Source: Microbacterium sp. (GTDB taxonomy: Bacteria > Actinomycetota > Actinomycetes > Actinomycetales > Microbacteriaceae). Taken from it: a DNA stretch of 40,017 nucleotides. This document shows, in pieces, positions 28,007 through 39,763 of the stretch. A program made the translations under genes and the position numbers. Under the pieces are notes generated by a model. The model saw only the letters and a list, made by a program, of their open reading frames with translations. It had not been told where the DNA came from and searched no databases. How positions within the stretch are numbered: the first letter of the stretch is position 1; every line of letters begins with the position of its first letter. Where the stretch lies: assembly GCA_002703245.1 (NCBI GenBank), contig NZTV01000096.1:1-40017 (forward strand), in the 5' to 3' direction.

Positions 28007-28558
28007 ATGCGCGATCGAAACGGCCGGGGCGCGGAGCCCGAATCTGAGCATCAGCCCCTGGCGGGCGTGCTCCCGCTGGTGCGGGTGGCCGAGCACGACG
28101 ACGGGACGGTGACCGTCACCCTGGACGGGAACCTCGTCGTCTCCGGGCCGATCGAACGATCACGCCTGGGCCGGGTGCTCTCGGCCGTCGCCGAGCAGAG
28201 CGGCGGGCCGGTGCGCGTGGAGCTTACCGCGACCGATGGGCGCGTGTTCGCCGACGTGCTGCGCCCGCCGACCCGCCCCTCACCGTTCGCCCCGCCGGTG
28301 CCGCCACCGACCGAGCTGCCCGAGCCGCTGCGCGCCCCCTCCCACGCGGCCAACACCATCCACGAACTGCTCGAGGTGCGCGGCGAGGGGTTCATCCCCG
28401 GCGAGGACGTGCAGGTCGCCGCGATCCTCACCGCCTCCAGCGCCGCACCGGACGGCGCGGCCCGCGGCCTGGTCGACGCCTCCCTCATCGGGGCGCCGAT
28501 TCGCGCACTGGCGCTCATCGGCGGCGTCTCCGGCACGCTCGCGATCCGGTACCTGTGA
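28007..28558 (+). CDS. Conserved hypothetical protein upstream of the coupling protein
   Basis: 183 residues, ATG with GAGGAG 5 bases upstream. N-terminal beta-rich domain (GVLPLVRVAEHDDGTVTVTLDGNLVVSGPIERSRLGRVLSAVAEQ), proline-rich linker (about 85-110), and a C-terminal domain (NTIHELLEVRGEGFIPGEDVQVAAIL, LVDASLIGAPIRALALIGGVSGTLAIRYL). No membrane segment. Its stop overlaps the start of the coupling-protein gene, so it may help that protein select DNA. Family not recognised. Confidence 0.7.
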   Translation: MRDRNGRGAEPESEHQPLAGVLPLVRVAEHDDGTVTVTLDGNLVVSGPIERSRLGRVLSAVAEQSGGPVRVELTATDGRVFADVLRPPTRPSPFAPPVPPPTELPEPLRAPSHAANTIHELLEVRGEGFIPGEDVQVAAILTASSAAPDGAARGLVDASLIGAPIRALALIGGVSGTLAIRYL

Positions 28559-30327
28559 TGAGCATGCAGCGCGGGGGCGGGCCGGCGAGCGACGTGCTGG
28601 TCAATCTCGCGCTCGGCGCGATCGCCGCCGTCGCGGGGCTCGCGCTCGTGCTGCGCGGCGCGGCGAGCGTCGCGGCCTGGCTCAGCGGTCTTCCGCAGCC
28701 CGACGGCGACATCGCCTCCGGGCTGGCGGTGCTGCTCGACCCGCTGAACCCGGCGGAGGCGACCGGCACGCCGGGACTCAACGCGATCGTGTTCTGGCTC
28801 GTCGCCGGGCTCATGCTCGCCGTCCTCACCACGGGCGTCGCCTTCGGCGTGGTCAAGTGGCGCTCACGCAGCCGCCGCCGCGACCCGCGCCGGCTGGAGG
28901 GGACTGCCACGGGGTCGGACATCGCCCAGACCGCCTCCACGCGCGCCCTGCAGAAGCGGTCGGCGAACCTGCGCCCGTCGCTCGGCAAGCAGGCCAAGCC
29001 TGCCGAGGTCGGCTACCTCATCGGCACCGCGAAGGGCCAGCGAGTCTGGGCATCGGTGGAGGACTCGATCCTCGTCCTCGGGCCGCCTCGTGCTGGCAAG
29101 GGCTACTACCTCGCTGGGAACTTCATCCTCGACGCGCCCGGCTCGGTGGTCACGACCTCGACGCGGCCGGACAACCTCGCGATCACGCTGCGCGCCCGTC
29201 GTCGCCTCGGCCCGGTCGCCGTCTTCGACCCGCAACGACTCGCACCGGGACTCCCGGCCGGGCTGCGCTGGTCACCCGTGCGCGGCTGCGAAGACCCCCT
29301 CACCGCAATGATCCGCGCCAGCGGCTTCGCTGCGTCGACCGGGCTCAGCGGAGGCGGGGTCGACTCCGGCGGATTCTGGGAGGGCAAGACCCGCGAGGCG
29401 ATCCAGGCGCTGCTGCACGCCGCCGCCCTCGGCGGCCTGGATGCCAGGAACCTCTACCGCTGGACCCTCAGCCCGGCGGCTGCCGCCGACGCGGTGCGCA
29501 TCCTCGCCGCCGAGCCGAACGCGGCCGAAGGGTGGGCGGACTCGCTGGACTCGATGATCCAGGCCGACCCGCGCACGCGAGACTCGATCTGGCAGGGCGT
29601 GAGCCTGGCCTTCTCCGCGTTCGCCGACCCGCGCGTGCTCGCTGCGGTGACACCCGCCCCCGGCGAGGTGTTCGACCCGACCCCGTTCCTGCAGGAGCGC
29701 GGCACCCTGATGATGCTCGCGACCGGCGCCGGGGCCGGGGCCGCCGGCGCACTGGTGGCGGCATTCATCGAGGACATCGTGGAAACCGCCCGCAGGATGG
29801 CGGCCCGCTCGCCGGGCGCGCGGCTCGACCCGCCGCTGGCGCTCGTGCTCGACGAGATCGGCAACCTGTCGCCCCTGCCGAGCCTGCCGACGCTCATGGC
29901 TGAGGGCGGCGGTTCGGGCATCACGACGATGCCGTTCCTCCAGTCCCTCGCCCAGGCCCGCGACAAGTGGGGGCAGGAGAAGGCCGGCGCGATCTGGGAC
30001 TCCGCGATCGTGAAGATCCTGCTCGGCGGGCAGGCGAACCCGAAGGACCTGCAGGACATCTCCAACCTGCTCGGCGAGCGCGACGACACGACGATGAGCG
30101 TCAGCCACGATGCCTTCGGCGCCCGCTCCTATCAGAGCTCGATCCGCCGGGTGCCGGTGATGTCCGGCGAGGAGCTGCGCACGATGCCGTTCGGCGTCGC
30201 CCTGACGCTGCTGCGGGCCGTTCCGCCGATCGTCACCGACCTGCGCGCATGGACGGCGCGACCGGATGCCGACCTGTTGCGCGCCGATCAGCGCGAGATC
30301 CAGGCGATCCTGCAGGCCGCCGAGTAG
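28558..30327 (+). CDS. Type IV coupling protein (VirD4/TraG-like)
   Basis: 589 residues from ATG 28558, overlapping the previous stop; a GTG one codon earlier is also possible. Two N-terminal transmembrane helices (LVNLALGAIAAVAGLALVLRGAASVAAWL and AIVFWLVAGLMLAVLTTGVAFGVV) enclose a short outside loop, the VirD4 topology. Walker A is GPPRAGKG, a variant ending in Gly seen in this family. SVVTTSTRPDNLAITL and Walker B LALVLDEIGNL follow, then GITTMPFLQSLAQARDKWGQ. It hands the relaxase-DNA complex to the VirB channel. Confidence 0.92.
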   Translation: MSMQRGGGPASDVLVNLALGAIAAVAGLALVLRGAASVAAWLSGLPQPDGDIASGLAVLLDPLNPAEATGTPGLNAIVFWLVAGLMLAVLTTGVAFGVVKWRSRSRRRDPRRLEGTATGSDIAQTASTRALQKRSANLRPSLGKQAKPAEVGYLIGTAKGQRVWASVEDSILVLGPPRAGKGYYLAGNFILDAPGSVVTTSTRPDNLAITLRARRRLGPVAVFDPQRLAPGLPAGLRWSPVRGCEDPLTAMIRASGFAASTGLSGGGVDSGGFWEGKTREAIQALLHAAALGGLDARNLYRWTLSPAAAADAVRILAAEPNAAEGWADSLDSMIQADPRTRDSIWQGVSLAFSAFADPRVLAAVTPAPGEVFDPTPFLQERGTLMMLATGAGAGAAGALVAAFIEDIVETARRMAARSPGARLDPPLALVLDEIGNLSPLPSLPTLMAEGGGSGITTMPFLQSLAQARDKWGQEKAGAIWDSAIVKILLGGQANPKDLQDISNLLGERDDTTMSVSHDAFGARSYQSSIRRVPVMSGEELRTMPFGVALTLLRAVPPIVTDLRAWTARPDADLLRADQREIQAILQAAE

Positions 30328-30402
30328 CGCGCCGGGGTTCGTTCGCACCTTCCTCACAGAGCCCGGCGGCACGCGCCAGGCCTGACAGGAAGGGTGACGG
30401 AG

Positions 30403-30996
30403 ATGGCACCGAGCGCAGACCCGGATCAGCGGATGCCGGAGGACCCGGACATCGAGCCGCGGGAGGGCATCGACGGGTTCATCGTGTCCAGCCCCCGGCT
30501 GACCACGATGTCGGATGGGCGTTCCCGGTTCTACGCCCGCATCGGTATGGAGCATTCCCAGCACCTCGGCGGCGGCCGCTTCGAGCAGCTCGACGCGACC
30601 TTCCACAACATGGTCGCCACCGGGCGGATCGCGGAGATCGCCGCCGACAAGCTCGTCAAGGGCGACAGGTTCGTCGCCCTCGGACACTTCGAGAAGCGTC
30701 CCGATCGCAACGACCCGGACGCGACGATCAAGGAGTTCGTGCTGACCGCCTTCGGCCCGAACGCGGCGCTGACGACCTACGCCGTCGACCGCACGCCTCG
30801 CCGCGGCGTCTCCCGCGAGGCGGCCGGCACCGCGGCGGAGCGCGAGAGCGGTCTGGACGCTCCGGCGGAGCCTTCCGCGGTGCGCGCCCCGCGCGGCCGT
30901 CCGTCGCGGACCACCGCGTCGGGTCGGCAGCTCGCCGACCTGAGCGCGGGCAGCGCCCCGGCCCAGGCGGTCTCCGGCGACGACATCCCGTTCTGA
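30403..30996 (+). CDS. ssb: Single-stranded DNA-binding protein (second copy, with acidic tail)
   Basis: 197 residues from ATG 30403, with AGGAAGG 9 bases upstream; the GTG at 30394 is too close to that site. An OB-fold of the SSB family (GFIVSSPRLTTM, FYARIGMEHSQHL, ATFHNMVATGRIAEIAADKLVKGDRFVALGHFEKR) is followed by a low-complexity linker and the end SGDDIPF. That acidic Phe-ending tail is the docking point for RecO, PriA and other SSB partners. It differs from the tail-less SSB of the minus operon, so the two have separate jobs, probably donor and recipient side. Confidence 0.85.
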   Translation: MAPSADPDQRMPEDPDIEPREGIDGFIVSSPRLTTMSDGRSRFYARIGMEHSQHLGGGRFEQLDATFHNMVATGRIAEIAADKLVKGDRFVALGHFEKRPDRNDPDATIKEFVLTAFGPNAALTTYAVDRTPRRGVSREAAGTAAERESGLDAPAEPSAVRAPRGRPSRTTASGRQLADLSAGSAPAQAVSGDDIPF

Positions 30997-31008
30997 GTGG
31001 GGAACGGG

Positions 31009-31575
31009 ATGAGCGAGTACGACGAGGACGGCCCGGCCGACGACCTGGAGGACGTGGATGACGCGCTCCCGGTCGGGCTGCCCGAGCCGCCGCACCCGAT
31101 CCGCTGGGACACGCTCAGCGCCGACGAGGCGGAGGCCGAATGGCTCGACCTGAACGCCTGGGTGAGTTGGCTGCGCCGAGCCTACGGCCTGCCCGCGAGC
31201 GTCCTGCCGCCGTTCTGGTACCGGCACGAGGAGCTGCTGTGGGAGCTGTCGGCGCTGCACCTGCACTGGCTCGGCGCCTACGACCCGGAGCAGCATGGTT
31301 CCGCTCCGATCGCCTGGCACGCCGACTTCGCCGCCGCCCGCGAGCGGCTGCGGGACTGGGTCTCGACCTCGGGCACGCGCCTGGACCGCGACCGGCCGAC
31401 CAGGGTGACCGACTGGCCCGGCGAGGAGCCGACCGATCACGGCGCCGAGATCGTCATCGAGAACCGCGACGAGGACTTCGTGGACTTCGTCGCCGCTGAC
31501 GTGGCCCGCCGCCGCGACCGCGACGGCAGGGCCACGGGAGGTGTCGACCCGGCAACCGGCGAGGTGCTGGACTGA
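31009..31575 (+). CDS. DUF4913-like protein
   Basis: 188 residues from ATG 31009 with GGGAACGGG upstream; a GTG at 30997 is less likely. Acidic N-terminus, then a conserved-looking core: LDLNAWVSWLRRAYGLPASVLPPFWYRHEELLWELSALHLHWLGAYD, which has the Trp-rich pattern (W..W..H.E....L..L...W) of DUF4913 proteins of actinobacterial mobile elements. Domain call from memory. Ends one base into the next ATG (TGATG). Function unknown. Confidence 0.7.
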   Translation: MSEYDEDGPADDLEDVDDALPVGLPEPPHPIRWDTLSADEAEAEWLDLNAWVSWLRRAYGLPASVLPPFWYRHEELLWELSALHLHWLGAYDPEQHGSAPIAWHADFAAARERLRDWVSTSGTRLDRDRPTRVTDWPGEEPTDHGAEIVIENRDEDFVDFVAADVARRRDRDGRATGGVDPATGEVLD

Positions 31576-34500
31576 TGGCCCGCCGCCGCCCACGCGTGCA
31601 TCCGGGCCAACTGGAGTTCGATCTGTGGGGTCTCGGCGAGGCTGAGGCCGATGAGAGGATCGGTGCCGCCCGCTACCACCCGGTCGGCCCGGAGACGGAG
31701 GGCGCGAGTGAATCGCTACGGCAGGCAGGCGATGGAGCACTGGCGGAAGTGGGCACCGAGCCGCCTGGCGGCGCTGCCGGACCCGGAGACGTTCTTCACA
31801 GCGTTGGGCCTCGAAGCGGAGACACAGGTGTCGGACCTCGCGGCAATACTGGCCGGGACGGACGAGCCGAGGGAGAATTACCTCCAGAAGGTCGCCCGGC
31901 TCTCGGCGGCCCGACGCCGAGCGGAGGAGGTCGTGATGACACAGCTGGCGTGGGTCAGCGACCCCGAGCTGCCGCTGGATCAGGCGCGCGAGGAGTTCGA
32001 GCAGACGACGGCCTCCTGGGAGAACCTGATCTCCTGGGCGGAGCGGATGCAGGATTCGCCGGATTTGATGCCCTCTTCAGCGGACCTGGAGGCGAAGGCG
32101 GCGGCCTGGGCGCTGACGGCCGAGTTCCTGCTCGACCTGGTGGCGGCCCCGGCACCGCGGGACTTCATGGACGCGCACCGGGCGATGCTGGACGAGGCGA
32201 TGACGCTGCGCTTCCTGCGCGAGCTGAGCTAGCACCCCGCTTCATCCCGGCCAGCCAGGATGCCTTGGCCCCGGCGGGCGCCAAGGCGCGGTTCCGGGCG
32301 AACGTCGAGGCGATCCGGCTCGCCCGGCTGCTCGCCGAGGAAGGCCGCTCGGCGACCGCCGACGAGCAGCCGGTGCTCGCCCGGTGGAGCAGCTGGGGCG
32401 CGATCCCCGACGTGTTCGACGGCGAGCGGCACGACTGGGACGCCGAGCGCGCCGAACTGCGGGGTCTGCTGAGCGATGCGGAGTGGGATGCCGCCTCGCG
32501 GACCACGATCAACGCGCACTATACCGATCCGGCGATCGGCCGGCAGATGTGGCGGACGCTGCGCGCGCTCGGCTTCGACGGCGGGCGGGTGCTGGAGCCC
32601 GGCAGCGGCGCTGGCACGTTCATCGGCCTCGCCCCGGACAGCGCCGAGATGACCGGCGTGGAACTCGATCCGGTCACCGCCGCGATCTCCCAGGGCCTCT
32701 ACCCGCGGGCGACGATCCGGGCGGAGTCCTTCGCCGACAGCCGTCTGCCGGTCGGCGGGTTCGATGCGACCATCGGGAACGTTCCGTTCGCGGGCGTGAC
32801 CCTGCACGACCCGGTGCACAACGTGAACCGGCACACGATGCACAACCACTTCATCCTGAAGTCGCTGCGGCTCACCCGGCCCGGCGGCCTGGTCGCGGTG
32901 CTGACCTCCCACTACACGATGGACGCGCGGAACCCCGGCGCCAGACGCGAGATGAACGAGCTCGCCGACCTGCTCGGCGCAGTCCGCCTGCCGACCGGGG
33001 CGCACCGCCGCGCGGCCGGCACCGAGGCGCTGACCGACCTGCTGATCTTCCGCCGCCGCTCCGACGAGCGCCTTCCGCTGGACGACTCGTGGGAGACCGT
33101 CGCGCCGGTGACGATCGACGGGCACGAAATGCGCATCAACACCTACTTCGACGAGCATCCCGAACTCGTGCTCGGCAGCGTCGCCGTGCGCAGCGGAATG
33201 CACGGCTCGGCGACGCTCATGGTCGACGGCGACCTCGACACCCTGGACGAGCAGCTCGGCGCAGCGCTCGACCAGATCGTGTTCGGCGCGCGTCGCGCCG
33301 GGCTGACGATGCTGGACCGCGCGCTCGCCCCGGCGCCGGAGATCGCCCAGCCGGAGCGTCTGGCGATGTGGGACGGCAGCATCGTCGTCACCGACCGCGG
33401 GTTCGCCACGGTCCTCGGTGACGACACCGAGCCCCTCAGCGTCCCCAAGACCGCCGCCTCCGAGCTGCGTGCGCTCGTGAGCCTTCGTGATGGGGCCAGT
33501 CACCTGCTGACGATGGAGGCGGCGACGCTGGACGACACCCCGGAGCTGGAGGCGGCACGGGCGCAACTGCGACGCGAGTACCAGAAGTACGTCACCCGCT
33601 ACGGGCCGCTGAACCGCTACGCGCTGCGTCCGACCGGCCGCACCGACCGGGAGGGCAACGAGACGCACGCGCGAATCGTGCCGACCGCGATCCGGCTGCT
33701 GCGGGCCGATCCCTTCGGCCCGCTCGTGCTCGCTCTGGAGGTCTTCGACGACACCGACCAGTCCGCGGTCCCCGCTGCGCTCCTCAGCCGCCGCGTCGTC
33801 GCCCCGCGCCCCGAAGTGCTCGGCGTCGACGGGCCGGCCGACGCGATCGCGGTGAGCATGGACCGCACCGGCACGGTCGACCTGCCGCTCGTCGCCGATC
33901 TGCTCGGCGTCTCCGAGAGCGACGCCCGAGCGGCGCTGCGCGGCCTGGTGTTCACCGAGCCGGAGACCGGAGGGCTCATCCACGCGCCCGAGTACCTGTC
34001 CGGCGATGTTCGGGTGAAGCTCGACGCCGCTCGCTCCGCCACCGAGCGCGATGAGGCGTTCCAGGAGAACGTCGCCGCGCTCGAGGCGGTGCTGCCCGAG
34101 CCGCTGAGCATCGAGGACATCACCCCGAGGCTCGGCGCGGTGTGGATCAGCCCGGCGGTTCACGAGGCGTTCCTGCGCGAGATCCTGCAGGCCGACGATG
34201 TGAACGTCGAGAACCCGCTGGCCGGCATGTGGGAGGTCCGCGGCGGCAGGAAGGGCATCCGCTCCACGAGCGAGTGGGGCACCGAGCGGCGCCCGGCGCC
34301 CGACCTCGCGCAGTCGCTCATGGAGCAGAAGCCGATCATCGTCTACGACGAGGTGGAGGACGCCGATGGTCGCAAGCGCAACATCCTCAACCCGGTCGAG
34401 ACGACCGCGGCGCAGGAGCGAGCCGAGATGCTGCAGGAGCGCTTCGCCGAGTGGGTGTGGGAGGACCCCGACCGAGCGAAGACGCTCTCCGACGAGTACG

Positions 34501-37172
34501 AGCGCCGCTTCAACAGCCTGGTGCTGCGCGACTACACCGATGCCGGCGACTACCTGACCCTGCCGGGGCTCGCCTCGAACTTCACGCCCCGCCCGCATCA
34601 GCGTGCCGCGGTCGCCCGGATGATCGCCGAGCCCGCTGCGGGCCTGTTCCACGAAGTCGGCGCCGGGAAAACAGCGGAAATGATCATGGGGTCGATGGAG
34701 ATGAAGCGCATGGGTCTCATCGCCAAGCCGGTCGTCGTCGTGCCCAACCACATGCTCGAGCAGTTCGGCCGGGAGTGGTTGCAGCTCTACCCGCGGGCGC
34801 GCATCCTCGCCGCCTCCAGCCAGGACATCACCGCCGATCGGCGCCGCCAGTTCGTCGCCCGTGCCGCCGCGAACGACTGGGACGCCGTGCTGCTGACCCA
34901 GGGCGCGTTCGCGAAGATCCCGCTGCGCGCCCAGACGCAGCAGGCGTACATCCAGGCCGAGGTCGAGCGCGTGCGCGCCGTGCTCAAGGAGGCCACGGGC
35001 GAGAACCGGATGAGCGTCAAGCGCATCGAGCGCAAGCTCCTCACCCTGGAGAACAAGGCCAAGGCACGCACCGACCTGAAGCGCGACCAGGGAGTGAGCT
35101 TCGAGGACACCGGCATCGACTACCTCATCGTCGACGAGATGCACATGTACAAGAACCTGTCGACGGAGTCCAACATCCAGGACGCAGCCATCGACGGGTC
35201 TGAGCGCGCCAGCGACCTGCACCTGAAGCTGGAGCATCTGCGCGCCTCAGGGCGCAAGCGCGTCGTCACCGGGGCCACCGCGACGCCGATCTCCAACAGC
35301 GTCACCGAGGCATACGTCATGCAGCGGTACATGCGCCCGGACCTGCTGCAGGCCGCTGGCATCGACGCCTTCGACGCCTGGGCCGCCACCTTCGGGCAGA
35401 CCGTCACGCAGATGGAGATGGCCCCGACCGGCAACAACACGTTCCGTATGAAGACCCGCTTCGCCCGGTTCTCCAACGTGCCGGAGATGCTGCGGATGTG
35501 GTCCATGTTCGCCGACGTCAAGACCGCAGAAGACCTGCAGCTGCCGACGCCCGATCTGGCCGAGCGTGACGACGGCATCCGCGCCGCGCGCACGATCGCG
35601 GTGCAACCGACTGTCGAGCTGGAGGACTACGTTCGACGGCTCGGCGACCGGGCGGAGCTGGTCGCGGCGAAGGCGGTGCCGCCGACCGAGGACAACATGC
35701 TCACCATCTCCACCGATGGGCGCAAGGCGGCGCTCGACATCCGCATGGTGCTGCCCCGCGACCCTTCCGGGCCGACGAAGGTCGACGTCGCCGCCGACGC
35801 GATCCACGCCGTCTGGGAGCGCACCCGCGACAACGAGTACCTCGACACCATCTCCGGCGAACCCTCCAGGGTGCGCGGTGCGCTGCAGCTCGTGTTCGCC
35901 GACATCGGCACGCCGAACCCCGACCGCTGGAACGCCTACGACGAGCTCCACCTGCAGCTCGTGCAGCGCGGGATGCCGCCCGAGTCGATCCGCTACATGC
36001 ATGAGGCGAAGTCCGACGCGGACAAGGCACGCCTGTTCGCCGCCGCCCGAGCCGGGCACATCGGCGTGCTGATCGGCTCGACCGAGAAGATGGGCGTGGG
36101 CACCAACGTGCAGGCGCGCGCCGTCGCGCTCTGGCACATGGACTGCCCGTGGCGGCCCTCGGACATCGCCCAGCGCGAGGGCCGCATCCTCCGCCAGGGC
36201 AACCAGAACGACGAGGTGGCGATCGTGCGCCTCGTCACCGAGCGGTCCTTCGACTCCTACATGTGGCAGGGCGTCGAGCGGAAGGCGACGTTCATCGCCC
36301 AGCTGATGCGCGGCAAGCTCGACTCCCGCGAGATCGAGGAGATCGACTCCGCGGCGCTGTCGGCAGCCGAGGCGAAGGCCATCTCGTCCGGGAACCCGCT
36401 ACTGCTGGAGCACTCGACGCTGCAGAACGAGGCGACCCGGCTCCGGCGCCTGGAGCGGGCCTTCCATCGCAACGAGTCGATGCTCGTCCACACCCGCGAG
36501 CAGGAGCAACGCCGTGTCGAGCGCGCCGAGGCCGACATCGCCGGGCTCGAAGCCGCGCTGCCGCGGATCACCGACACGAGCGGCGAGCGGTTCCGCATCC
36601 ACCTACTCGACCGCGACTTCGACTCCCGCGTCGACGCCGGCCACGCGCTCGCACAGTGGGCACACAACTCCGAGCTGCGCTGGGCACCCCGCTACGCCGA
36701 GCGCGACTTCGGCGTCGTCGGCCGCATCAGCGGCTTCGAGATCCGCATCGGCACGCACGGCGGCCTCCAGGAACCGGACATCGCCATCTCACTCGACGGC
36801 GTGCCACGCACGACGATCCTCCTGCCACGCTCCACCTTCCTCGAAGGCGGCGTCGGCATCATCCAGCGCATCGAGAACCGCGTCTCCGGCATCCCCGCGC
36901 TGCTCGGCCACGCCCGCGAAGACCGCGAGAAGGCCGAGCTCGCCGCCGAGGAAGCCGACCAGCGCATCGGCAAGCCCTTCCGCCACGCCGAGACCCTGGC
37001 GAGGACCGAAGCGGAACTCCAGGACGTGGAGACCCGGCTCGCTGCGATGCAGCGCGGCGTCGGCACGGAGACGCCCGAGGAGCCGAAGCCGCCGGAGCGC
37101 GCGGCCGCGCTCGCGGACTTCACGACGAGCCGATCCGCCGCCTCGTCGACAGGGCCGCGCCTCGGTCTCTAG
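31575..37172 (+). CDS. Giant DNA methylase/SNF2-type helicase of the conjugative element
   Basis: 1865 residues from ATG 31575. The first 45 residues (MARRRPRVHPGQLEFDLWG) look genuine. Residues about 46-220 are Gly/Arg-rich and overlap a better-coding gene in another frame (31708-32232). Conserved sequence resumes at RFIPASQDALAPAG. Methylase-like part: EPGSGAGTF near 341 and NVPF near 401, an altered NPPY. Helicase part: Walker A HEVGAGKTAEM near 1026, VDEMHMYKNL near 1187, TATPISNS near 1235, and motif VI QREGRILRQGN near 1533. The coiled-coil-rich C-terminus has EQEQRRVERAEADIAGLEAAL. Such proteins are common on conjugative elements; their role (DNA protection, unwinding or defence evasion) is unsettled. 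No relaxase motif. Confidence 0.9.
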   Translation: MARRRPRVHPGQLEFDLWGLGEAEADERIGAARYHPVGPETEGASESLRQAGDGALAEVGTEPPGGAAGPGDVLHSVGPRSGDTGVGPRGNTGRDGRAEGELPPEGRPALGGPTPSGGGRDDTAGVGQRPRAAAGSGARGVRADDGLLGEPDLLGGADAGFAGFDALFSGPGGEGGGLGADGRVPARPGGGPGTAGLHGRAPGDAGRGDDAALPARAELAPRFIPASQDALAPAGAKARFRANVEAIRLARLLAEEGRSATADEQPVLARWSSWGAIPDVFDGERHDWDAERAELRGLLSDAEWDAASRTTINAHYTDPAIGRQMWRTLRALGFDGGRVLEPGSGAGTFIGLAPDSAEMTGVELDPVTAAISQGLYPRATIRAESFADSRLPVGGFDATIGNVPFAGVTLHDPVHNVNRHTMHNHFILKSLRLTRPGGLVAVLTSHYTMDARNPGARREMNELADLLGAVRLPTGAHRRAAGTEALTDLLIFRRRSDERLPLDDSWETVAPVTIDGHEMRINTYFDEHPELVLGSVAVRSGMHGSATLMVDGDLDTLDEQLGAALDQIVFGARRAGLTMLDRALAPAPEIAQPERLAMWDGSIVVTDRGFATVLGDDTEPLSVPKTAASELRALVSLRDGASHLLTMEAATLDDTPELEAARAQLRREYQKYVTRYGPLNRYALRPTGRTDREGNETHARIVPTAIRLLRADPFGPLVLALEVFDDTDQSAVPAALLSRRVVAPRPEVLGVDGPADAIAVSMDRTGTVDLPLVADLLGVSESDARAALRGLVFTEPETGGLIHAPEYLSGDVRVKLDAARSATERDEAFQENVAALEAVLPEPLSIEDITPRLGAVWISPAVHEAFLREILQADDVNVENPLAGMWEVRGGRKGIRSTSEWGTERRPAPDLAQSLMEQKPIIVYDEVEDADGRKRNILNPVETTAAQERAEMLQERFAEWVWEDPDRAKTLSDEYERRFNSLVLRDYTDAGDYLTLPGLASNFTPRPHQRAAVARMIAEPAAGLFHEVGAGKTAEMIMGSMEMKRMGLIAKPVVVVPNHMLEQFGREWLQLYPRARILAASSQDITADRRRQFVARAAANDWDAVLLTQGAFAKIPLRAQTQQAYIQAEVERVRAVLKEATGENRMSVKRIERKLLTLENKAKARTDLKRDQGVSFEDTGIDYLIVDEMHMYKNLSTESNIQDAAIDGSERASDLHLKLEHLRASGRKRVVTGATATPISNSVTEAYVMQRYMRPDLLQAAGIDAFDAWAATFGQTVTQMEMAPTGNNTFRMKTRFARFSNVPEMLRMWSMFADVKTAEDLQLPTPDLAERDDGIRAARTIAVQPTVELEDYVRRLGDRAELVAAKAVPPTEDNMLTISTDGRKAALDIRMVLPRDPSGPTKVDVAADAIHAVWERTRDNEYLDTISGEPSRVRGALQLVFADIGTPNPDRWNAYDELHLQLVQRGMPPESIRYMHEAKSDADKARLFAAARAGHIGVLIGSTEKMGVGTNVQARAVALWHMDCPWRPSDIAQREGRILRQGNQNDEVAIVRLVTERSFDSYMWQGVERKATFIAQLMRGKLDSREIEEIDSAALSAAEAKAISSGNPLLLEHSTLQNEATRLRRLERAFHRNESMLVHTREQEQRRVERAEADIAGLEAALPRITDTSGERFRIHLLDRDFDSRVDAGHALAQWAHNSELRWAPRYAERDFGVVGRISGFEIRIGTHGGLQEPDIAISLDGVPRTTILLPRSTFLEGGVGIIQRIENRVSGIPALLGHAREDREKAELAAEEADQRIGKPFRHAETLARTEAELQDVETRLAAMQRGVGTETPEEPKPPERAAALADFTTSRSAASSTGPRLGL
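31708..32232 (+). CDS. 174-residue protein overlapping the helicase N-terminal region in another frame
   Basis: GTG 31708 has GGAGG 6 bases upstream. The frame reads NRYGRQAMEHWRKWAPSRLAALPDPETFFTALG, then helical charged segments (ENYLQKVARLSAARRRAEEVV) and ends MDAHRAMLDEAMTLRFLREL before TAG. Third codon positions are almost all G or C, while the helicase frame over the same bases is not, so this is the main coding frame here. The RYGR...HW...P...F...LG start recalls short genes beside large helicases in actinobacterial elements (memory only). The helicase frame has no ATG, GTG or TTG between 31950 and 32265, so the helicase must be translated through this gene or be restarted unusually. 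Confidence 0.75.
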   Translation: MNRYGRQAMEHWRKWAPSRLAALPDPETFFTALGLEAETQVSDLAAILAGTDEPRENYLQKVARLSAARRRAEEVVMTQLAWVSDPELPLDQAREEFEQTTASWENLISWAERMQDSPDLMPSSADLEAKAAAWALTAEFLLDLVAAPAPRDFMDAHRAMLDEAMTLRFLRELS

Positions 37173-37247: not shown

Positions 37248-37562
37248 ATGAGCGTGACGGTCCCCGGAACGATCCCGGCCGAGTCGTTGCGCGCCTGGTA
37301 CGACGACCAGCAGGTCGATGACGTCGTGCTCTACGACATCACCGCGCAGACCGCTACGAGCCTGTCCGCGATGCTCATCGCCCGCCGCCGCGCCGCCGGC
37401 GACGAGCGCGAGCGCGAGCACTGGTCGGCCCGGATGCGCCTGGTCGCCCAGCAGCAAGCGGTCCTCAACCCCGAGGACCGTGCCGGGCTCATCGCCCAGC
37501 AGCAGGCGTGGCTGGACGAGGCGCACGTCCTCTCCGACCAGGCCGCGCCCCAGCCCGCGTGA
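37248..37562 (+). CDS. Putative antitoxin of the zeta-type toxin
   Basis: 104 residues, helical, with many Ala, Gln and Arg (LSAMLIARRRAAGDEREREHWSARMRLVAQQQAVL). It is not recognisable as a classic epsilon antitoxin. The call rests on context: small helical protein directly before and overlapping (GTGA) a zeta-toxin gene, the standard order. Similar small partners stand before zeta toxins in actinobacterial mobile elements. Confidence 0.6.
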   Translation: MSVTVPGTIPAESLRAWYDDQQVDDVVLYDITAQTATSLSAMLIARRRAAGDEREREHWSARMRLVAQQQAVLNPEDRAGLIAQQQAWLDEAHVLSDQAAPQPA

Positions 37563-38599
37563 CCGGGCCGGAGGTCGCCTCCGAAGCCTGGCTCCGGCGC
37601 ACCTTCGACTCCGAGGTCCGCGACGACATCTTCGGCGGCCACACGCCCTCGGGCGAAGCGCCGACGCTCGTGCTACTCGGCGGGCAGCCCGCCGCGGGCA
37701 AGACCCGCGCCCAGGAGTCGATCCTCGCCGAACGCCCGGAGCTGGTTTCGATCACCGGCGACGACCTGCGCCGCTACCACCCCGAGTATGAACGCCTCGT
37801 CACCGACGACCCGCTCGGGATGCCCGCCGCGACCGCGCCGGTGTCCGGCGGGCTGATCCGCCTCGCCCTCGACCACGCGCTCGCACGGCGGCTCCCGGTG
37901 CTGTTGGAGGGCACGTTTCGCGACCCGGCGATAGTCACCGGAACTGCGACTCGGTTCGCTGACGCTGGCTACCGCGTCGAGGTCGTCGCCGTCGCCGTCC
38001 CCGCGCCGGTCTCCCGGCTCGGGGCCGAGCAGCGCTACCTCGGCGCCCGCAATCCGCTGTCGGCCCGCTGGACCCCGCCCGAGGCGCACGAGACCGCGCT
38101 GGCCGGCTCCCCGGCGGTCGTCGCCGCGCTCGAGGCGCTGCCCGCGGTCTCCCGCGTCCAGGTCCACTCCCGCGCCCGCCTCCTCTACGAGAACATCCGC
38201 GACACGCGGGACGCCTGGCAGCGAGAGCCCGGCGCGGCCGATGCGCTCCGCGCCGAGCAGCTGCGGCCGCTCACGGCGGACGAGGCCGCATCGTGGCTCG
38301 TCCGCTACGGGGCCGTGTTCGACGCCGCCCGCACCCGCCCCGGCTACCTCAGCCCGGTGACCGCGCCGGCCTACCAGCTGCTCGAACACGACGCCGCGAC
38401 GATCATCCCGACGATCCCCGCCGCGGACACCGGGATGCTCCAGCGCGACCAGGAGCGACGACGCATCGCGCTCCGCACCGCTGTCCCCGAGCCTCGGCGC
38501 GGAGTCATCCGCCGTCTGCGCGACGCGATCACCCGCGAACCGTCGACACCGCCGCCGCCCAAGGAGCCTTCCAGAAAGCCGCCGACACTCGGGCTCTAG
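37559..38599 (+). CDS. Zeta-type toxin (P-loop kinase)
   Basis: 346 residues from GTG 37559. Walker A GGQPAAGKT at about 39-47, the conserved ITGDDLRRYHPEY with the catalytic Asp near 64, and EGTFRDP near 117 mark the zeta/PezT fold, which phosphorylates UDP-N-acetylglucosamine and blocks wall synthesis. The C-terminal 120 residues go beyond the kinase core and end in a Pro/Lys-rich tail. With the preceding gene it forms a likely addiction module that keeps the element in the population. A long antisense open frame here is a shadow. Confidence 0.85.
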   Translation: MTGPEVASEAWLRRTFDSEVRDDIFGGHTPSGEAPTLVLLGGQPAAGKTRAQESILAERPELVSITGDDLRRYHPEYERLVTDDPLGMPAATAPVSGGLIRLALDHALARRLPVLLEGTFRDPAIVTGTATRFADAGYRVEVVAVAVPAPVSRLGAEQRYLGARNPLSARWTPPEAHETALAGSPAVVAALEALPAVSRVQVHSRARLLYENIRDTRDAWQREPGAADALRAEQLRPLTADEAASWLVRYGAVFDAARTRPGYLSPVTAPAYQLLEHDAATIIPTIPAADTGMLQRDQERRRIALRTAVPEPRRGVIRRLRDAITREPSTPPPPKEPSRKPPTLGL

Positions 38600-39482: not shown

Positions 39483-39714
39483 AAGTGGGCTCAGGCGAGG
39501 CTGTCGGTCGACGAACCGGACTGAACTCTCGACGGAAGAACGACGGAGAAACGTGGAAACCGACACGATTCTGCCGAAGATCCGTGCAGAACGACGACGT
39601 TGTAGACTCGTCTCAGCACCGTTGCGAAGCGGCCAAGTCCCCCGGAAACACGGGGAAGTTGCCCCGCCGAGTGAGGTGGCTCAAACCAGGGGTTCATGGT
39701 TGGGCTTGGGAACT
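39483..39714. other. Element right-end spacer, no gene recognised
   Basis: No convincing coding frame. Contains the hairpin at 39640-39655 and a GGGG run at 39689-39692 that by chance sits where a tRNA 5' end would be. Confidence 0.4.
39640..39655 (+). terminator. Possible hairpin after the MerR-CMD operon
   Basis: CCCCG/CGGGG with a 6-base loop at 39640-39655, about 160 bp after the last stop. Short and without T run. Confidence 0.3.
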
Positions 39715-39763
39715 TCTGCTTCCCAAGCAGACAGCGCGGGTTCGATTCCCGTCATCCCCTCCA
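39715..39763 (+). other. 3' part of tRNA-Gly(CCC): probable right attachment site
   Basis: Anticodon stem TCTGC/GCAGA encloses loop TTCCCAA (anticodon CCC). Then a variable loop CAGC, T arm GCGGG-TTCGATT-CCCGT, acceptor strand CATCCCC, discriminator T and encoded CCA. T as discriminator is the glycine identity base. The bases upstream do not supply the matching GGGATG acceptor strand (two mismatches), U8, A14 or A21, so the 5' half is not a tRNA. A 3' tRNA copy after a block of mobile genes is the usual attR of a tyrosine-integrase element; the element would lie to the left. Confidence 0.75.

Follow-up and report, generated by a model that had tools for sequence, protein, structure and literature searches.

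A giant helicase gene from a Microbacterium sp. raises the question of how one stretch of DNA can be read in two frames: its N-terminal part holds a complete gene of 174 codons in another frame. We examined this arrangement in the window, the whole stretch of 40,017 nucleotides that was analysed, in which the helicase and the features of both frames described below lie on the forward strand. An earlier sequence-only reading had offered three explanations, namely that both frames are translated, that the inner gene was inserted into the helicase gene, or that the helicase is started by re-initiation or frameshift.

The helicase gene and the gene inside it

The region of the window is of the conjugative type. 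A gene for a VirD4/TraG-like coupling protein (28555-30327) is followed by an SSB-like gene (30394-30996) and a DUF4913-like gene (30997-31575), the matches of both being weak, and the TGA of the latter overlaps the ATG of the helicase gene (TGATG). The helicase open reading frame (31575-37172) encodes a DarB-like, SNF2-type methylase-helicase of 1865 amino acids with up to 70% identity to Microbacterium homologues. It was classed by its Pfam SNF2-related and Helicase_C domains (34644-36200), both over cut-off, and by homology to phage proteins annotated as DarB-like; other homologues carry an SNF2 annotation. The Eco57I match (E 0.18) is under its cut-off, and methylase is a predicted activity. 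A conserved helicase/methylase core (32238-33671) served as a search query blind to the inner gene. On the 3' side of the helicase, a Zeta-toxin family ORF (37508-38599; Pfam E 8.5e-35) overlaps a 104-aa ORF (37248-37562) without a Pfam match. Close to the right end of the window lies a tRNA-Gly (CCC) gene (39689-39763), a possible integration site of the element, preceded by ORFs that we take to be MerR-like and carboxymuconolactone-decarboxylase-like.

In agreement with the sequence-only reading, the inner gene runs from GTG 31708 to TAG 32232, in the +1 frame relative to the helicase and wholly inside its ORF. A Shine-Dalgarno-like GGAGGG (31697-31702, -11 to -6 of the GTG) lies within the helicase frame, and the GGAGG site reported earlier is thus present, 6 nt upstream of the start. 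The helicase frame was also rightly described as open over the inner gene, its ORF being continuous. Two further details hold: this frame contains no ATG, GTG or TTG between GTG 31950 and TTG 32265, and no more than 9 nt separate the inner TAG from the point at which conserved helicase sequence returns.

The inner protein is predicted to be all-helical (AlphaFold2 with 59 homologues; mean pLDDT 88.8, pTM 0.48). Alignment and model divide it into a TnpV-like N-terminal module (residues 1-81; 31708-31950) and a C-terminal helical module (residues 90-174; 31975-32229) that is absent from shorter relatives. Homologues of the inner ORF were found by tblastn in 37 plasmid records, all presumably from actinobacterial genera, and many are annotated as 'TnpV protein'. 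Eight aligned members share the start MN.YG. Five of these eight match the Pfam TnpV family (PF14198) at E<1 (best 2.6e-5), one of the five with 21.4 bits against a cut-off of 27; the window's own protein has no match at E<1, and a nested ORF from Listeria passes the gathering cut-off with 29.0 bits. A profile-profile comparison of A2, the set to which these eight belong, against A3 gave a probability of 89 and an E of 2e-6. The Pfam TnpV search had no match in the window's own genome or in any of 14 control genomes and is uninformative. No function was obtained from Pfam, NCBIfam, a PDB sequence search or Foldseek, the last of which found nothing similar to the model at E<=0.001 in either the PDB or a viral library. 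The label that the sequence matches give the inner protein is TnpV-like, not TnpV.

Recurrence of the arrangement and its possible origins

Of 156 loci with the core, two copies of the window (L001, L090) were dropped; some of the remaining 154 are near-identical to each other. With the blind query, a TnpV-like ORF was found upstream of the core in 118 of the 154. Its frame is +1 in 117 of the 118, the exception being a broken copy (L056). Stops in the inner frame, which the sequence-only reading had named as evidence against its view, were looked for, and the frame is intact in 116 loci; the other two are L056 and a locus at a contig end (L083). No stop interrupts the helicase frame in the stretch examined of the 118 loci (only 44 codons for L056 and nothing for L083), and the third frame has 0 to 16 stops over the nest. 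In the rare broken copy (L056, 3638-3986) the TnpV-like sequence is split over frames and the helicase frame is closed inside. A conserved helicase start codon after the inner stop was likewise sought in the homologues and not found; a constrained N-terminal segment precedes the nest.

The signals for initiation recur as well. ATG or GTG stands at the conserved start position in 110 of the 118 loci, and a Shine-Dalgarno match of at least 4 nt precedes 100 of the 109 intact ATG/GTG inner starts, compared with 13.6% of 729 control starts; at 5 nt or more, the figures are 65 of 109 and 3.6%. The profile missed 36 core loci; reading by eye found a +1 ORF in the nest position in 32 of them, none in L110, L112 and L142, and one further locus was partly masked. 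Five mycobacterial-type loci (L103, L105, L106, L107, L109) carry nested +1 ORFs of ~200 aa that end 155-428 nt before the core. L108 has two TnpV-like ORFs (604-927 and ~1217-1490): a nested one in +1 and, immediately upstream, one that shares the helicase phase and is closed by a stop.

Beyond these loci, 16 named records of plasmids and phages were examined, and nine contain a nested +1 ORF: a Campylobacter jejuni plasmid, Listeria pLIS11, a Corynebacterium plasmid, and phages BcepIL02, PEp14, LASTA, VvAW1, Itty13 and BKO1-TP3. A convincing nest is absent from P1 darB and from the Ensifer, Calothrix, Aeromonas, Streptococcus phage, Rhodococcus ruber and Thermus phage records (the last being doubtful), which indicates that the helicase can do without it. 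Three of five further viral loci bear the nest (L184 and L186 do not). Three more viral scans gave 213 loci, from which 91 near-duplicates and two with too little upstream sequence were removed. In 105 of the remaining 120, an ORF of 60 aa or more that follows a Shine-Dalgarno match and ends near the core lies in +1; none of the 120 has such an ORF in +2, and 15 are without a nest by the 60-aa criterion. Control windows in the helicase body also yield such ORFs (34/343 in +1, 11/343 in +2), so that a single hit can be chance. One nested stretch, shared by L179, L189 and a list of Listeria records, is annotated in most of the listed Listeria records within an SNF2-related, ArdC-like or methyltransferase gene, and in one as TnpV; four isolated phages carry the nested ORF unannotated.

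An iterated profile built from the actinobacterial family recruited 197 of 234 nested ORFs (89/89 representatives of the core loci, 29/40 of a divergent set and 79/105 viral ORFs, the sets used below for stop codons) and one of 1170 shuffled decoys. The 37 ORFs outside the profile include those of Campylobacter and Bacteroides; hence, common descent of all nests does not follow. Run over the fetched loci, which are redundant across scans, the profile identified a +1 nest in 293 of the 393 loci that bear the core and gave five matches elsewhere, at a record end (L008), in L108, twice in L056, and in a stand-alone TnpV on pMSR0.

Insertion of the inner gene into the helicase gene, one of the options of the sequence-only reading, is plausible as an origin. 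Another explanation, that the gene inserted as a selfish or mobile element and keeps the host frame open by chance, has a precedent in the ShiLan phages, where an HNH endonuclease lies out of frame in a DNA methylase gene through homing insertion (PMC11855218). In both cases a complete gene lies out of frame within a methylase gene on mobile DNA, with a GTG start, an open host frame and a host segment predicted to loop. TnpV standing alone in mobile elements (pMSR0; PMC3158075) would also fit. However, the ShiLan gene encodes an HNH protein and is described as having no detectable ribosome-binding site (PMC11855218), whereas the gene studied here is TnpV-like, has a Shine-Dalgarno site and recurs at an identical position and in the same frame across very divergent elements. 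Moreover, most of the actinobacterial and phage loci sampled have the nest, which is thus not sporadic, and no HNH or other endonuclease family is among the matches. We regard such a chance insertion as unlikely, and an HNH insertion of the ShiLan type was rejected on the last two points.

Programmed frameshifting is a further alternative. It would either produce a TnpV-helicase fusion by a -1 shift from the inner frame or move ribosomes that started on the helicase into the inner frame by a +1 shift, and the fixed phase, with the helicase frame at -1 relative to the inner one, would suit it. But from its own start onwards the helicase frame is uninterrupted, so that neither frameshifting nor re-initiation, the third option of the sequence-only reading, is needed. 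Relative to the approximate start of the core, the position of the inner stop varies between 428 nt upstream and 52 nt downstream, a spread that gives no hint of a set slip place, and the inner starts have ATG or GTG codons with Shine-Dalgarno sites of their own. We therefore consider frameshifting very improbable.

Selection on the two frames

Each helicase codon in the overlap consists of position 3 of an inner codon and positions 1 and 2 of the next; hence, the only hard conflict is an inner wobble T before AA, AG or GA. Stop-making codons were counted in 89 representatives, reduced by shared 12-mers from 116 loci (the 118 minus L056 and L083). NNT codons make up 0 of 2527 codons before AA, AG or GA, compared with 516 of 6587 (7.8%) before others (Fisher 6e-76), while the non-overlapping core of the same set shows no such difference (645/7271 vs 2441/27942, p = 0.71). 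All 89 helicase frames are open, compared with 24.8 expected from synonymous shuffles or 16.8 with helicase codon usage. For the window alone, the helicase frame is open in 33% of synonymous shuffles and in 16% with helicase codon usage, so that one window proves little and the excess over chance appears only in aggregate.

The same holds for more distant sequences. The divergent set contains 40 of 44 nested ORFs picked by eye (L129, L153, L163 and L165, being near-duplicates, were omitted; for L183 and L106, the first codon chosen is not a start codon) and includes loci of 28-50% GC, among them a plasmid whose fetched stretch has 28% GC. Here the count is 0/999 vs 307/2283, and 4 to 7 open frames would be expected of 40. 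For the 105 viral ORFs, with at most the last 110 codons of each counted, it is 0/2215 vs 565/4896. In the core controls of both sets the values lie slightly below the comparison (491/2407 vs 1663/7371, p = 0.03, for the divergent set; 1036/6383 vs 3885/18671 for the viral set), a mild context effect that is far from zero. The counts indicate that the outer frame is kept open across the overlap by selection.

At the level of amino acids, the two frames differ. The sequence-only reading had pointed to dN/dS in both frames as informative. In 32 pairs, which share no locus yet are not phylogenetically independent, with changes classed in both frames, dN/dS is 0.46 (0.41-0.51) for the inner frame, indicating purifying selection, and 1.30 (1.15-1.49) for the helicase frame in the overlap, compared with 1.27 for an empty frame in the core. 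In 23 viral pairs, at least three of which repeat the same contigs fetched by two scans, the values are 0.40 (0.33-0.48), 1.14 (0.94-1.38) and 1.42, respectively. Inner third positions show 0.141 changes per site, core third positions 0.219. Constraint on the helicase amino acids within the overlap was expected but not found in the 32 pairs or in the 23 viral pairs, and with its residues there free of purifying selection, only openness appears to be selected. The helicase segment upstream of the nest, compared in 28 of the 32 pairs, has a dN/dS of 0.42 in its own frame and of 1.1 and 2.2 in the other frames. This conserved, constrained start segment of the helicase frame and the recurrence of the arrangement in distant elements go beyond the sequence-only reading.

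The start segment contains a conserved motif, GQLEFDLWG (31605-31631), which takes the forms MARRx...GQLxFDLWG, GQLSLESLW and GQLSIDAFLF. It resembles a beta-clamp-binding motif, defined as Q-aliphatic-x-[L/M]-(x)-[F/L] (PMC11139829), and may bind the clamp. A slightly widened clamp-like pattern occurs in 14 of 71 representatives with a short N-terminus, compared with 0.96 expected from shuffles; the other 57, including the window, do not match it.

Between this segment and the core, residues 35-217 of the helicase (31677-32225), holding nearly all of the overlap, are predicted to form a disordered linker rich in Gly, Ala, Arg, Asp and Pro. In an AlphaFold2 model of residues 1-421, pLDDT is near 30 for this part and the folded core begins at about residue 222. 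In the overlap, the helicase frame encodes 25% Gly and almost no Ile, Phe, Trp, Tyr, Met or Lys. Given a dN/dS like that of an empty frame, the low pLDDT and the skewed composition, the outer protein looks like a stop-free, sequence-tolerant linker across the overlap. We also scanned six helicase-frame stretches upstream of the core, five of them from nest-bearing loci, for known domains. Four of the five have one 5' of the nest: ArdC-N in Listeria, SLT in BcepIL02 and LASTA, and DnaG_N in Micromonospora; none was found in VvAW1 (nest-bearing) or Rhodococcus ruber (nestless). In these four loci the outer polypeptide would be expected to run through the nest.

Two adjacent genes, with a helicase start near 32265 and an open helicase frame that is a mere by-product of high GC and G/C third positions, are hardly credible as an explanation: the shadow phase of high-GC genes seldom meets stops, as the window's own shuffles illustrate, and in some plasmid records the annotated helicase begins only after the inner gene, but stop-making codons are missing even with loci of 28-50% GC included, the +1 frame is nearly invariant, and a constrained segment and known domains lie upstream in the helicase frame.

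A probable nested gene pair in genes for DarB-like proteins

The comparisons show an inner frame under purifying selection, a helicase frame kept open, a constrained upstream segment and a widely conserved arrangement. Of the three options in the sequence-only reading, translation of both frames fits best, and we are confident, judging from the sequence comparisons, that the locus is a same-strand, out-of-frame nested gene pair; translation probably takes place in both frames, with internal initiation for the inner one. Ribosomes starting at ATG 31575 would read straight through to give the full helicase-methylase, in which a disordered linker of ~180 residues, nearly free in sequence, would tie the N-terminal segment to the catalytic core. 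Ribosomes at the internal Shine-Dalgarno site would start at GTG 31708 and make the TnpV-like protein, both products probably coming from one shared mRNA. Because the inner stop usually lies near the beginning of the methylase core, the small protein would be made at about that point. A partnership of the inner protein with the core is attractive, and the two may work together during DNA transfer.

Nested out-of-frame genes are a known kind, with few established long cases in prokaryotes according to published abstracts; what appears to be new is a widely conserved nest in a linker selected only for openness. Like the phage spanin gene Rz1 in Rz (PMC9144972), the inner gene lies whole within another coding sequence, but Rz1 and Rz encode small lysis proteins, whereas here the outer gene encodes a giant enzyme, in whose predicted disordered linker the overlap lies. 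In phage JC1, a DarB-like protein has been listed as part of the virion (PMC9144972). TnpV of Tn4451-type elements is also a small mobile-element protein, for which a role in excision has been postulated from homology with lambda Xis (PMC3158075); as described there, it is encoded by a separate gene of the element and is not nested. Elements of Streptococcus suis that have a TnpV gene are described as using an snf2 gene as their insertion site (PMC9815147). The host genes encode polyvalent proteins of the DarB-like SNF2 helicase-adenine methylase kind, which phages and conjugative elements carry (PMC5512222); the main text of that paper uses none of the terms 'overlap', 'TnpV' and 'frameshift'. 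Among the papers listed by searches of the open-access PMC literature, none on a TnpV-like gene nested in a helicase gene was recognisable by its title or the start of its abstract.

P1 DarB shields phage DNA from type I restriction (PMC5512222), and from this host gene we infer, by analogy, a function in antirestriction. A broader view, to which we give somewhat less than an even chance, is that an out-of-frame partner gene in the pre-core linker is an old shared feature of the DarB-like methylase-helicases of phages and plasmids, TnpV-like in at least three bacterial phyla and of unassigned family in two more, Campylobacterota and Bacteroidota. The partner would be made on the same message as the core emerges and would assemble with it, the linker being selected only to be stop-free.

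The recurrence of the nest over plasmids and phages of several phyla allows statistical testing in hundreds of sequences. It points to a simple route to overlapping genes, in which a disordered linker hosts a second gene and only stops are forbidden. For annotation the consequence is a helicase cut short or a small gene dropped. The inner protein itself is a candidate partner for an antirestriction machine.
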